Shown here piece by piece: positions 1,453 to 32,316 of a DNA stretch of 35,266 nt; within the stretch, counting starts at the first letter, position 1; the number at the start of each line of letters is the position of its first letter. Under the pieces are notes generated by a model that had not been told where the DNA came from, did no database searches, and saw only the letters and a program-made list of their open reading frames with translations. The stretch is from the NCBI GenBank assembly GCA_030156615.1, contig JASGME010000012.1:1-35266 (forward strand), written 5' to 3'. A program made the translations under genes and the position numbers. This DNA comes from Candidatus Woesearchaeota archaeon. Its GTDB lineage: Archaea; Nanobdellota; Nanobdellia; Woesearchaeales; UBA119.

Positions 1453-1755
1453 TCAAAGATTCAGCCTTTCTCTTGCATTTCTATTTATCATATCAGGAGT
1501 CCATTGAGGCGAAAATGTAAGTTCAATATCCACATTTGCCTCAGGAAATTCCTCTTTAAGCTGATGCTCTGCCATTGAAGCAACATAGTTCCCTAAAGGA
1601 CATGCAGGGGATGTCATAGTCATCAAAATCTTTATATTGTTATCGTCAATATTTACATCGTAGATAAGTCCTAAGTCAACAATGTTTACTGGGATCTCCG
1701 GATCATAGACATTTGATAATGCATTAAGAACATCTTCTTTAGTTATTTTTTCCAT
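1453..1755 (-). CDS. MIP18/SufT-family (DUF59) Fe-S assembly factor
   Basis: This 100-residue protein has the two hallmarks of the MIP18/PaaD/SufT family. DPEIPVNIVDLGLIYDV lies at about residues 18-34 and TSPACPLG, with the conserved cysteine, at about 48-55. Members help deliver or repair Fe-S clusters in cytosolic apo-proteins. It is the last gene of the isc operon, 19 bp after iscU, and has an SD (AGGTGA) before ATG 1755. Placement behind cysteine desulfurase and scaffold genes supports a role in cluster maturation rather than phenylacetate degradation. Length is normal for the family. A related DUF59-like domain without the cysteine is fused to the upstream IscU. Confidence 0.9.
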   Translation of the reverse strand: MEKITKEDVLNALSNVYDPEIPVNIVDLGLIYDVNIDDNNIKILMTMTSPACPLGNYVASMAEHQLKEEFPEANVDIELTFSPQWTPDMINRNARERLNL

Positions 1756-1774
1756 AATATCACCTGTTTAAAGC

Positions 1775-2437
1775 TCATATTAGCTGAGGATGATCAACAA
1801 ATTCTATTTCAATCTTTCTTATTTTAGGAATGAATTCAAGCTTCTCCCTTATCTCTTCTTTCATATGTGCCTCAAGCTCATCATTTTCTTGTTTTCTCAT
1901 CTGGATCAAAACATCAACAGAATCTCCTTCTTTTTCAATTCCAACATATAAAACCTCCTTTAGCCTTACAATATCTGTGCCAACAGAAGGATCAATAACA
2001 TGTCTGAGTTTCCTTAAGATGAAATCCTTTGTTATACTCTCAGCATTAACCTTTGTTATTCCTTTCTCTATCTTGTATCTTTCTATTGCTTGTTTTATTG
2101 CATCCACAGCAAGTACAGAACAATGGACCTTTACCTTTGGCAGGCCTCCGAGTTCTTTAGTAACCTCTGCCCAGCTTATCTTCTCTGCTTCATCAATATG
2201 CTTCCCTTTTATCATCTCAGTCGCAATAGATGCAGTAGCTATGTTAGAAGCACATCCAAATGATTTAAACTTAACATCTTCTATTCTGCCATTTTCATCT
2301 ATCTTTAGTTGCAACTGAATAATATCACCGCATGCAGGACTTCCTTCCTGAACACTTACTGATGGTTTTTCAAGCTCCCCCACATTCTTGGGGTTCCGAA
2401 ACAGTTCTATTACCTTTTCCGTGTAATCCAAAGCCAT
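1775..2437 (-). CDS. iscU: IscU-type Fe-S scaffold fused to a DUF59-like domain
   Basis: Residues 1-~125 are an IscU scaffold. The three cluster cysteines are C36 (SPACGD), C62 (FGCAS) and C106 (VHCSV), with D38 and H105 alongside, matching the known ligand set of IscU. IscU receives sulfur from IscS and iron to build a [2Fe-2S] cluster. Residues ~135-220 form an extra domain that reads like DUF59/MIP18 (RHVIDPSVGTDIVRL then VLYVGIE) but lacks the TxPxCP cysteine. The total of 220 aa compares with about 130 for plain IscU. The start codon lies inside the iscS reading frame, with an overlap of 68 nt, and GAGAGGCGAG just upstream acts as a likely SD. Confidence 0.93.
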   Translation of the reverse strand: MALDYTEKVIELFRNPKNVGELEKPSVSVQEGSPACGDIIQLQLKIDENGRIEDVKFKSFGCASNIATASIATEMIKGKHIDEAEKISWAEVTKELGGLPKVKVHCSVLAVDAIKQAIERYKIEKGITKVNAESITKDFILRKLRHVIDPSVGTDIVRLKEVLYVGIEKEGDSVDVLIQMRKQENDELEAHMKEEIREKLEFIPKIRKIEIEFVDHPQLI

Positions 2438-3641
2438 TGTCTCGCCTCTCTTTTTCTTTATTTTCTTTCTTAGTTAATGGACTAAGCTCTCTCAACTCTT
2501 CAACAACTTTTTTTATCTTTTCAACGGCATAATCAACATCTTTTTTTGTCGTGTATTTTGATAGAGTTAGCCTGAGAGAACCATGGGCCTTTTCATGTGG
2601 TAAACCAATAGCGTTTAGCACATGACTTGGTGTTAAATTAGCTGATGAGCAAGCACTGCCAGTTGAAGTCATTATTCCATAATCACTTAATCTAAAAACT
2701 AAAGATTCTCCCTCAATGTAATCAAATCTTAAATTTGCATTGTTTGGCAATCTTTTTTCAATTGAGAGATCTGATGAACCATTCAAATAACACCCGTCAA
2801 TTTCTTTTAGTAATCTCTCAACAAGATAATCCCTTAGCTTCTTAACATATTCAGCAGTCTTCTCCATTTCTTTAGATTCAATCTCAACAGCCTTGGCAAA
2901 TCCTACAATTCCCGGAACATTATGAGTACCCGGTCTAAGTCTGAATTCATGTGGTCCGCCACCATACAATGGATCTATCTTTATCCCATCTCTTATGTAT
3001 AATGCACCTATGCCCTTTGGTCCATGCATTTTATGAGCATTCATTGTAAGCATATCTATATTTTCTTCATCAACATTTATTGGAACCTTGCAATAACTCT
3101 GAGTAGCATCTGTATGAAAAACTACATTATGCTCTTTACACAGCTTTCCAATAGCTTCTATATCTTGTATCGTTCCTATCTCGTTATTGCCGTGTATGAT
3201 TGAAACAAGAAGAACACTATCATCTAGCTCTTTCTTCAATTGCTCCATATCAATAAAACCTTCTTTATCAACATTTAGATAAACTATGTTAAATCCTTCT
3301 CTACTTAAATGAACACAGCTTCTAAAAACTGCAGCATGTTCTATTTTTGTAGTTATGATTTTATTTTTCTTATCGCTTTTATGCTTCCTGCAATAACCTT
3401 TTATTGCGATGTTATCGGATTCAGTAGCTCCAGAAGTAAATATTATCTCTTCTGGTGAAGCTCCAATAGATCTTGCTATTGTTTCCCTCGCCTTTTCAAC
3501 AGCCCTCTGAGCTTCAATGCCTAATTTATGCAACGAAGAAGGGTTCCCGTATTCCTCTGTAAAATAAGGCAGCATTGCCTTAACTACCCTGTCATCAACT
3601 CGTGTTGTAGCGGCATTATCCATATATACAATCCTTTTCAT
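2370..3641 (-). CDS. iscS: Cysteine desulfurase IscS/NifS
   Basis: This PLP enzyme takes sulfur from cysteine, passing it as persulfide to IscU for Fe-S clusters and possibly to tRNA thiolation. The sequence shows the class V aminotransferase layout: YMDNAATT at 6-13, GNPSS at 32-36, TSGATESDN at 69-77, EHAAV with H102, D178 and Q181 (HTDATQS), the PLP lysine K204 in NAHKMHGPKG, and the catalytic C331 in TGSACSSA. The family body ends near ELRELSPL. A lysine-rich tail of about 35 residues follows and runs 68 nt into iscU in another frame, giving 423 aa rather than the usual ~390-400. It follows the HTH regulator by 48 bp. Confidence 0.96.
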   Translation of the reverse strand: MKRIVYMDNAATTRVDDRVVKAMLPYFTEEYGNPSSLHKLGIEAQRAVEKARETIARSIGASPEEIIFTSGATESDNIAIKGYCRKHKSDKKNKIITTKIEHAAVFRSCVHLSREGFNIVYLNVDKEGFIDMEQLKKELDDSVLLVSIIHGNNEIGTIQDIEAIGKLCKEHNVVFHTDATQSYCKVPINVDEENIDMLTMNAHKMHGPKGIGALYIRDGIKIDPLYGGGPHEFRLRPGTHNVPGIVGFAKAVEIESKEMEKTAEYVKKLRDYLVERLLKEIDGCYLNGSSDLSIEKRLPNNANLRFDYIEGESLVFRLSDYGIMTSTGSACSSANLTPSHVLNAIGLPHEKAHGSLRLTLSKYTTKKDVDYAVEKIKKVVEELRELSPLTKKENKEKERRDNGFGLHGKGNRTVSEPQECGGA

Positions 3642-30441: not shown

Positions 30442-31287
30442 TTATTCTTTAATTCTTCTGTTCCTCTTCCTTTTCTTATTTATTGGAGTAAGTATTATCA
30501 GAAGAGCGATTAATGCAATTATGCATATTATTGCAAATAACATAAAGAAGGAGCCATTCTCAACAAACTCATCCTCTTCCTCATATTCTCCATTGTTTTC
30601 TTTAGTCTCATTCCATAGCAATCTCCATTTATCAATCTCTATTGAATTCTCAAATAAAATCTCATCAGCTCCAACCTTAATCTTTATGAATTGACTTTGA
30701 TTATATTCAATCTCATCTAAGTTTTCTAATGCCTGTTGAATGTTTTCTGCCTCGAAAAGATATTTTGCTAATTCTGAATTAATAGGGTTTTTATTTGCTG
30801 GAGGAATCAAAACTCTGTTTCTATTCCATATTCGTAATGAACCTTCTATTTTGCTTAGATCAAGCTCTGAAAACTCAATTGATTCATTAGTGAGAGGGCA
30901 AGGATTCTCAGTTAAAGATTCAATTATTTCATATGAATCCATAATTTCGTATTTGCCAAGTGCAAATGTTTTGTTTTTGAAGATTAATGAAGGAATCCCT
31001 TCCTTCCCTTTTTCCATGTATGAATTAAAAAAAATAGATGCAATCTCCTGATTTGTTGAAGTTTCATGTATGTCGTATTCAATCAAAACTAATTGAGGAT
31101 AATTCAAAGTAAAGTTTGTTAAAACTATCTTGTCTGTTATCAGGCAGTCAGGACATTTTGAGCTTGTTAGATATACTGCACAGACATCATTTTGACTTAG
31201 AGAAAGATTAATATCCGATATAAAAATACATAAGACCAATGAGAACAATATTAAATTCTTCCTTCTTCGATTATAACTTTTTTTCAT
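30442..31287 (-). CDS. Membrane-anchored extracytoplasmic thioredoxin-like protein with CPDC motif
   Basis: An N-terminal basic stretch and hydrophobic helix (about 11-28) export the chain. A thioredoxin-like start follows: DVCAVYLTSSKCPDCL with the redox pair C45-P-D-C48 and an extra C36. GIPSLIFKNKTFALGKYE fits the cis-Pro strand of the fold. The middle (150-240) is unclassified. A C-terminal helix at about 246-268 is followed by a basic tail (NKKRKRNRR), so both ends are cytoplasmic and the thioredoxin part is outside. It is probably a thiol oxidoreductase or disulfide carrier. It lies 25 bp after the membrane HTH gene and is likely co-transcribed, so the two may work together. Confidence 0.78.
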   Translation of the reverse strand: MKKSYNRRRKNLILFSLVLCIFISDINLSLSQNDVCAVYLTSSKCPDCLITDKIVLTNFTLNYPQLVLIEYDIHETSTNQEIASIFFNSYMEKGKEGIPSLIFKNKTFALGKYEIMDSYEIIESLTENPCPLTNESIEFSELDLSKIEGSLRIWNRNRVLIPPANKNPINSELAKYLFEAENIQQALENLDEIEYNQSQFIKIKVGADEILFENSIEIDKWRLLWNETKENNGEYEEEDEFVENGSFFMLFAIICIIALIALLIILTPINKKRKRNRRIKE

Positions 31288-31312
31288 TTTTATATTCAGC
31301 CAATGAAGTTTA

Positions 31313-31828
31313 TCAAGAGAGGAATAGTTCTTTTATCTCTTTTTCAAGCTCAACAATATTTGTCATTCCGTTCTGACTTTTCTTAATAATTCCTTTTTGC
31401 TCAATTTTCTTTAATATCCTTGAAACTTTCACCCTTGAAATCCCCGTTTTTTTAACAATGTCTGATTGAGATGACTTGCCTTTATTATCAATAATCGCTT
31501 CAATTATCTTCTTTTCGTCGGGCTCTAATAAGGAAAGCATTATTCTATTATCTCTGTGAATCTCTTTCAGTTTTTCTTCGTATCTTTCAGATCTTTCAGA
31601 TATTAAATAATATGTTAAACTTCCTACAAAAAGTCCAAATAATGAAAGTGTTACTATGGCTAATATTACCTCGTTCCTCATCCTGCATTGAAGATCACAT
31701 AAAACCTGTTGATTTAGGTATATGAGAGAGAAAAACAAGACTGAAGTAAAACCAGCGATACATGCAACTATGAGCCAAAACCGAAGATAATTGTTTTTCA
31801 CAGGATTCATTCTTATCATCATGCTCAT
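31313..31828 (-). CDS. Membrane-anchored winged-helix regulator with external Cys pair
   Basis: The 171-aa protein has two transmembrane helices (about 17-38 and 54-76) joined by a short loop holding C44 and C48 (VLCDLQCRM). A charged linker helix (ERSERYEEKLKEIHRD) and a C-terminal MarR-like winged helix (about 95-165) follow: LLEPDEKKIIEAIIDNKGKSSQSDIVKKTGIS, with the recognition helix RVKVSRILKKIEQKG. With N-terminal basic residues inside, the loop should face outside and the DNA-binding part the cytoplasm. This makes it a one-component membrane regulator. Several ATGs cluster at the start; the first is given. A CPDC protein follows in the same operon. Confidence 0.8.
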   Translation of the reverse strand: MSMMIRMNPVKNNYLRFWLIVACIAGFTSVLFFSLIYLNQQVLCDLQCRMRNEVILAIVTLSLFGLFVGSLTYYLISERSERYEEKLKEIHRDNRIMLSLLEPDEKKIIEAIIDNKGKSSQSDIVKKTGISRVKVSRILKKIEQKGIIKKSQNGMTNIVELEKEIKELFLS

Positions 31829-31908: not shown

Positions 31909-32316
31909 ATGAAAGAATTTAACGAAGCTAAGCAAAAGTTAAATGAATTATGCAACTCAAATAATCTTGATTTGATTGAGAAAAGAGAAAGATTAGAGGA
32001 CATAGTTGTTAATTATGGAAGATTGAATAAAGAAAAGCTTTGGATAGAGCCAGAAGGGATAGATTGTCAAAAACTTGAAGAAGGACCATCTATAGTCTTT
32101 CGGGGACTTTATGATTCTTTGGAATTTATTGGCTTCTATGTAAAAGAAGATTCTTTCTATCTGCTAACTCCACGAAGTTATTTTCGGAAAGATTATGGTG
32201 AAAATCCATATCTTAAATTGAAGAAAGCATTCACAAGAATCTTGGGACATGAAGAGACAGATATTGTTTTAAATTGTTACGGAGTGTTGGAGACATGGTG
32301 GGAAGAGGATATTTAA
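31909..32316 (+). CDS. Hypothetical protein, 135 aa
   Basis: I do not recognise this protein. It starts with a helix pair (MKEFNEAKQKLNELC, LIEKRERLEDIVVNYG), followed by a beta-rich part (GPSIVFRGLYDSLEFIGFYV, FYLLTPRSYF) and ends in a Trp/Glu-rich tail. It is soluble, with no export signal. AAAATATAAATC about 26 bp before the ATG and no SD indicate a leaderless single gene. It is divergent from the membrane HTH gene with an 80-bp gap, so it could be a target of that regulator; this is only positional. Confidence 0.65.
   Translation: MKEFNEAKQKLNELCNSNNLDLIEKRERLEDIVVNYGRLNKEKLWIEPEGIDCQKLEEGPSIVFRGLYDSLEFIGFYVKEDSFYLLTPRSYFRKDYGENPYLKLKKAFTRILGHEETDIVLNCYGVLETWWEEDI

Follow-up and report, generated by a model that had tools for sequence, protein, structure and literature searches.

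An archaeal contig attributed to Candidatus Woesearchaeota places a membrane-anchored winged-helix regulator with a pair of loop cysteines next to a thioredoxin-like protein with a CPDC motif, raising the question of whether the two genes form a switch that carries the thiol state outside the membrane to the DNA. The window analysed here, the whole stretch of 35,266 nucleotides, is contig C16 of a 0.86-Mb assembly (G000), and both genes lie on its minus strand. In the sequence-only reading of this DNA, the CPDC protein controls the thiol state of the loop cysteines and the winged helix relays it to DNA, a signalling link that remains an inference.

Architecture of the membrane regulator

The regulator P0001 (31313–31828, minus strand) reads from ATG to stop as a protein of 171 residues. 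Its residues 103–161 match Pfam DUF7343 (PF24034) with 51.6 bits against a gathering cut-off of 27.6, and the AlphaFold model, built with 11 sequences, consists of a helix at residues 10–42, a tight turn at 43–47, a long helix at 48–99 and a winged helix at 103–170 (mean pLDDT 73). Within the first helix, a hydrophobic stretch at about residues 17–40 (31709–31780) marks transmembrane helix 1. Transmembrane helix 2, at about residues 53–77 (31598–31672), is predicted to extend far into the cytoplasm, its helix ending only at residue 99. The winged helix (31319–31522) is related to the solved structures of CodY and of MarR/ArsR-type regulators. Between the two membrane helices lies the C44-x3-C48 pair (31685–31699), with the codons of C44 and C48 at 31697–31699 and 31685–31687, respectively. 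The open reading frame, the Pfam match and the model thus bear out the earlier description of two membrane helices joined by a short loop with two cysteines. Given two predicted membrane passes and a DNA-binding C-terminus in the cytoplasm, the short loop with C44 and C48 must, on topological logic rather than by measurement, face outside.

Conservation of the loop cysteines

The L-C-x3-C motif at the loop is kept in all 10 closest relatives of P0001, so that both cysteines are invariant in the 11 aligned sequences. By comparison, C23 in helix 1 is not conserved among the same relatives, which argues that the loop pair is not a matter of chance. A wider sister group carries C-x-C at the same loop place, typically as NNACGCVIPIP. 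The conservation that the redox-switch idea calls for is therefore present, in the C-x3-C form among close relatives and as C-x-C in the wider group.

The assemblies of the closest relatives are labelled Woesearchaeota, Pacearchaeota, Nanoarchaeota and ‘Nanohalarchaeota’, indicating that the hosts are DPANN-type archaea, and 191 of the 378 genomes sampled in the class have a match to the regulator family as a whole. G000 itself holds two paralogues of P0001 (L002 and L003) without the loop pair. Three regulators that adjoin thioredoxin/CcdA genes (L055, L062 and L065) have a single loop cysteine; a strict intramolecular disulfide therefore cannot be universal in the family.

Association with thioredoxin and CcdA genes

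The gene next to P0001 belongs to a group found in 39 of the 288 genomes of the order, whose members mostly encode longer proteins in which a CPxC thioredoxin-like part is fused to a CcdA/DsbD-like membrane domain (hereafter Trx-CcdA). Pfam recognises only some of these members; L042, for example, scores above the cut-off for Glutaredoxin and below it for DsbD_TM. To relate loop type to neighbourhood, 147 distinct relatives of the regulator were gathered by regulator similarity alone, blind to their neighbours, and 141 of them were classed by loop, adjacency being defined as a Trx/CcdA (DsbD-type) gene within 600 bp of the regulator.

Such a gene adjoins 36 of the 39 assessable regulators with C-x3-C or C-x-C loops (10/11 and 26/28, respectively), compared with 7 of the 94 with other loop types (Fisher p = 6e-22, a value inflated by the relatedness of the rows by descent). 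The other types comprise C-x5-C-CPM loops (0/27), other C-x5-C loops (3/15), other loops with at least two cysteines (0/16), one-Cys loops (3/6) and loops scored as Cys-less (1/30); the lone adjacent case in the last class, L132, really has VCDAQQLC, which the helix finder misread. Closer inspection of the three exceptions shows that L036 is an artefact of overlapping gene calls, its Trx-CcdA gene being in fact adjacent, and that L040 and L094 belong to genomes in which the CcdA gene is unlinked but preceded by an exact copy of the operator described below. In L072, which could not be assessed, the contig breaks off within a gene that looks like the same Trx gene. The conserved adjacency agrees with the co-occurrence of the two genes expected under the sequence-only reading.

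The gene arrangements vary: regulator and target are co-directional, divergent or unlinked, and Trx and CcdA are fused or split. The association survives these rearrangements, and on the winged-helix tree the relative orientation changed at least four times, although a single clade with weak support takes in most of the adjacent rows (36 of its 41 rows are Trx/CcdA-adjacent); an independent-contrast test on this tree had too few supported pairs to decide.

Further neighbours were seen at some of the C-x3-C loci. At L068, L070, L072–L074 and L077, two MinD/Mrp-type ATPases with inserted ferredoxin domains precede the regulator, and further small genes, by eye of NifX/DUF134-type look, often lie upstream of these ATPases. 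At L040/L071 (G068), the regulator is followed by a flavoprotein that by eye resembles CoA-disulfide reductase/NADH oxidase, not by Trx-CcdA.

A tandem operator around the TATA box

The loci share a 17-bp inverted repeat, GTTWCA-N5-TGWAAC, which occurs as a tandem pair with starts exactly 32 bp apart and a TATA box between the two sites. Of 46 site pairs, 41 keep this spacing, and an A/T run of at least 6, usually a clear TATAAA-like box, is present in the 15-bp spacer of all but one of 31 tandem elements (30/31). With up to two mismatches allowed, 34 sites lie upstream of C-x-C regulators where shuffled sequences give 1.1, and 14 lie just after C-x3-C regulators, before the Trx gene, where shuffles give 0.4; the loci used for this first count are also those from which the consensus was derived. 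The C-x5-C-CPM class shows no such excess (2 seen, 1.4 expected). Upstream of the Cys-less relatives, 21 sites were found against 2.9 expected, and 26 against 2.6 for a form with an N6 spacer, indicating that this DNA specificity is shared across the family beyond the Cys-loop members.

Independent support for the operator comes from the scan of the window's own genome, from genomes in which CcdA is unlinked and from a blind scan. The blind scan for the tandem operator covered 288 genomes, and among the places listed with 0–1 mismatches, 17 of 18 are at Trx/CcdA loci. One place, in G114, proved to be a regulator locus not previously collected, with the loop HACVCF and an adjoining Trx-CcdA gene. 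Another, in G001, a member of the window's genus, precedes a Trx-like lipoprotein gene just after a masked gap, in which the missing regulator could lie. The remaining place, G086:C20, is inside a gene and was set aside as chance together with the tandem matches G236:C21, G171:C7 and G107:C28, also inside genes. The tandem match G173:C62 (two mismatches) is intergenic and has no adjoining Trx/CcdA gene. Exact single sites at L206–L209 and L212–L214 fall inside open reading frames and were likewise rejected.

Conversely, the operator is absent from all 22 Trx-CcdA genes of the P0002-like group whose locus has no Cys-loop regulator (0/22), a set that leaves out L011, whose genome has its regulator on another contig, and L021, which has no CcdA part; L011 carries the tandem pair. 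As judged from sequence, the regulatory link among regulator, operator and Trx/CcdA gene is well supported.

The thioredoxin-like neighbour and the operators of the window's genome

P0002 (30442–31287, minus strand, 281 residues) follows P0001 after a gap of 25 bp (31288–31312), as had been noted. It has an N-terminal hydrophobic signal, the CPDC motif at residues 45–48 (31144–31155), with both cysteines invariant in the alignment, and a predicted C-terminal transmembrane helix at residues 245–265 (30493–30555), which together make it a predicted secreted, membrane-anchored CPDC protein, in line with the earlier prediction that it faces outside. It is assigned as thioredoxin-like because it is homologous to the N-terminal half of Trx-CcdA fusions (E = 1.2e-24), combines the CPDC motif with a cis-Pro-like GIPSLI and has the corresponding order of strands and helices. 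The Pfam match is below threshold and the structure model poor; searches of the PDB, by structure with this model and by sequence, returned nothing useful, and a scan of the genome contigs with P0002 as query gave no match. P0002 stops after one C-terminal helix and thus does not have the multi-helix CcdA/DsbD membrane domain. It is a CcdA-less variant, co-oriented with P0001, that may serve as the redox partner of the loop. Because the CcdA domain is absent and no clear operator precedes the gene, P0002 is more likely a co-expressed partner of P0001 than its regulated target; it is also possible that it is a decaying remnant.

The sole exact operator site in the 0.86 Mb of G000 lies on a contig other than the window's (C7:14896–14912, GTTTCAAAAAATGAAAC). 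Some 30 bp beyond it begins a gene for a secreted thioredoxin-like protein with a CGAC motif, and CcdA comes next. A TATA-like GTTTAAAAG occupies the 15-bp spacer, and a second half-site lies at 32 bp. A search of G000 with this CcdA as query found no other CcdA in the genome. The same arrangement, an unlinked CcdA with the operator in front and a Cys-loop regulator elsewhere than beside it, occurs in G334 (L205) and G068 (L211), and in G058 (L250) with an operator of three mismatches.

Within the window, a degenerate dyad, TTCA-N5-TGAA (31295–31307, no strand assigned), lies between P0001 and P0002, at the place where relatives carry their first operator. It has four mismatches to the consensus and is one of four such dyads in the 35-kb window; on its sequence it is only a possible operator remnant. 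A shared operator near the neighbouring gene at 31909, which the sequence-only reading had suggested looking for, was not found: with up to three mismatches, the window has 71 matches against 60 expected, not above chance. Of the redox-switch reading, then, the conserved loop cysteines and the conserved adjacency to Trx/CcdA genes stand, and the shared operator near 31909 falls away.

The paralogue L003 (G000:C7; also L194), which has a long loop without cysteines, is divergent from a gene for a small secreted protein and has an operator-like GTTTCATTCTATGATAC about 106 bp upstream. L003 may compete for the same operators, and since Cys-less relatives use similar operators, ownership of the G000 operator could be shared with it. 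Two further features of the window were noticed in passing: a bacterial-type GroES–GroEL pair, by eye, in this archaeal genome (8704–10625, plus strand), and, on sequence reading only, an iron-sulfur assembly-like set with IscS/NifS-like, NifU-like and SufT-like genes (1453–3641, minus strand).

Sister loops of the family

Regulators with C-x-H-G-x2-C-P-M and related C-x5-C loops (L110, L113, L123, L127, L138, L139, L147, L150, L165 and others) adjoin genes resembling HMA/heavy-metal P-type ATPases, and this cluster of neighbours occurs at 40 loci. Within the same family, these sister membrane regulators likely sense copper. Regulators with LC...CPAH/CPVH-type loops (L105, L118, L145, L149, L162 and L185) lie near cupredoxin-like, multicopper oxidase, DUF411 and DsbD_TM genes. 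We put forward, as a tentative generalization that may well prove too broad, that this archaeal family of membrane winged-helix proteins comprises modular one-component sensors with interchangeable extracytoplasmic metal or thiol loops, in which C-x3-C and C-x-C loops would serve a Trx-CcdA homeostat through the tandem operator, and C-x-H-G-x2-C-P-M and CPAH loops would serve copper defence.

A proposed model for outer-redox control and its alternatives

On the architecture, cysteine conservation, gene association and operator, as they appear from sequence, we think it rather probable that P0001 is a membrane repressor that senses the extracytoplasmic thiol/disulfide state and controls a thioredoxin–CcdA reducing pathway in archaea of the Nanoarchaeota/Woesearchaeota type. 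Members of its family would be transmembrane one-component regulators of an extracytoplasmic thiol-reducing pathway made of a thioredoxin-like protein and the CcdA electron transporter, and we infer that the cytoplasmic winged helix, as a dimer, recognizes both 17-bp inverted repeats around the TATA box of the target promoter. In archaeal promoters, sites around the TATA box argue for repression, and since the operator sites flank it, repression is the response argued for here: occupancy would block TBP/TFB and RNA polymerase, as suggested by the position of the sites. The loop cysteines would act as the sensor, with their thiol/disulfide state set by external oxidants and the thioredoxin domain and relayed to the winged helix by way of the helix hairpin. 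Once oxidized, the loop would lift repression, and the additional Trx/CcdA produced would re-reduce it, giving a feedback homeostat. In the genome of the window, the target would be the single CcdA gene and its thioredoxin at G000:C7.

The cysteine pair might instead serve as a ligand for a metal or sulfur species (copper, mercury, arsenic or sulfane sulfur), with control of Trx-CcdA belonging to the cell's response to metal or sulfur stress. The HMA/P-type ATPase, cupredoxin-like and multicopper-oxidase genes beside the sister classes whose loops are C-x-H-G-x2-C-P-M or C...CPAH, and the existence of single-Cys members, speak for such a role, but the C-x3-C and C-x-C loops do not have the conserved His/Met of the copper-linked classes and the HMA cluster is a neighbour at none of their loci, and we regard this reading as unlikely. 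Still less probable, in our estimate, is that the pair forms a constitutive structural or dimer-locking disulfide while another signal, such as membrane state or a ligand, is sensed and Trx-CcdA is only the target; although one-Cys relatives, and Cys-less relatives with similar operators, imply that fold and DNA binding are independent of the pair, Cys loops specifically track the Trx/CcdA target.

A further explanation concerns P0002 and is compatible with outer-redox sensing by P0001. P0001 and P0002 could be a leftover pair in which P0002 is a decaying Trx-CcdA remnant with no signalling role and the C7 operon is the working target. The missing CcdA part, the lack of a clear operator before P0002 and the exact operator at C7 all fit this explanation, but the P0002 frame is intact over 281 codons and retains the CPDC motif, the signal and its own C-terminal anchor, so that we hold it to be a serious yet somewhat unlikely account of the pair.

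Comparison with known systems

A search limited to the open literature found no description of this regulator–operator system and no paper naming Pfam DUF7343. CadC and ToxR–TcpP of E. coli and Vibrio have an N-terminal OmpR-type winged helix, one membrane helix and a large periplasmic domain. They resemble the P0001 family in being membrane-integrated and in that external (periplasmic) cysteines matter. The CadC disulfide has been demonstrated, and periplasmic oxidoreductases are reported to have had no major influence there (PMC3096576). CadC is a precedent for a membrane regulator tuned by a disulfide outside the membrane. By comparison, P0001 has two N-terminal helices that form a hairpin around a tiny loop, and its winged helix is C-terminal and of the DUF7343/MarR-like kind, so that it does not have the ToxR/CadC arrangement.

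Winged-helix repressors switched by a cysteine pair are also known from sulfur-oxidising bacteria, where soxS, which encodes a periplasmic thiol-disulfide oxidoreductase, is found nearby (PMC10451225). These repressors, SoxR and SqrR, are of the ArsR type and are not known to have a membrane part. Among archaea, SurR and MsvR respond through a thiol switch and are reduced by proteins of the thioredoxin type, and the review covering them describes no membrane part (PMC7278568); their cysteines report the cytoplasmic state, unlike the external loop cysteines of P0001. ArnR and ArnR1 of Sulfolobus are likewise archaeal one-component regulators bound to the membrane, where two C-terminal helices anchor them, and they act at inverted-repeat boxes; they have an N-terminal HTH, a HAMP-like and a sensor domain and type IV pilus/archaellum targets, and the main text mentions no cysteine (PMC6396743). 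P0001 differs from the ArnR type in its opposite domain order and in having no sensor domain.

The closest general category is that of the transmembrane transcription regulators (TTRs), which a census found to occur in archaea and in whose main text a term search found no mention of a cysteine, disulfide or redox role (PMC10269533). P0001 unites a DNA-binding domain with one or more transmembrane regions in a single polypeptide, as the definition of a TTR has it, and shares with TTRs the one-component design of a DNA-binding domain with membrane helices. The operator, the target pathway and the named sensor residues make outer-redox sensing directly testable, and the operator provides a genome-wide handle on the regulon in mostly unculturable organisms with reduced genomes, in which the sensing of surface conditions is little known. 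If the proposal is true, P0001 would be, as far as the compared literature shows, the first archaeal transcription regulator that reads the redox state outside the membrane.
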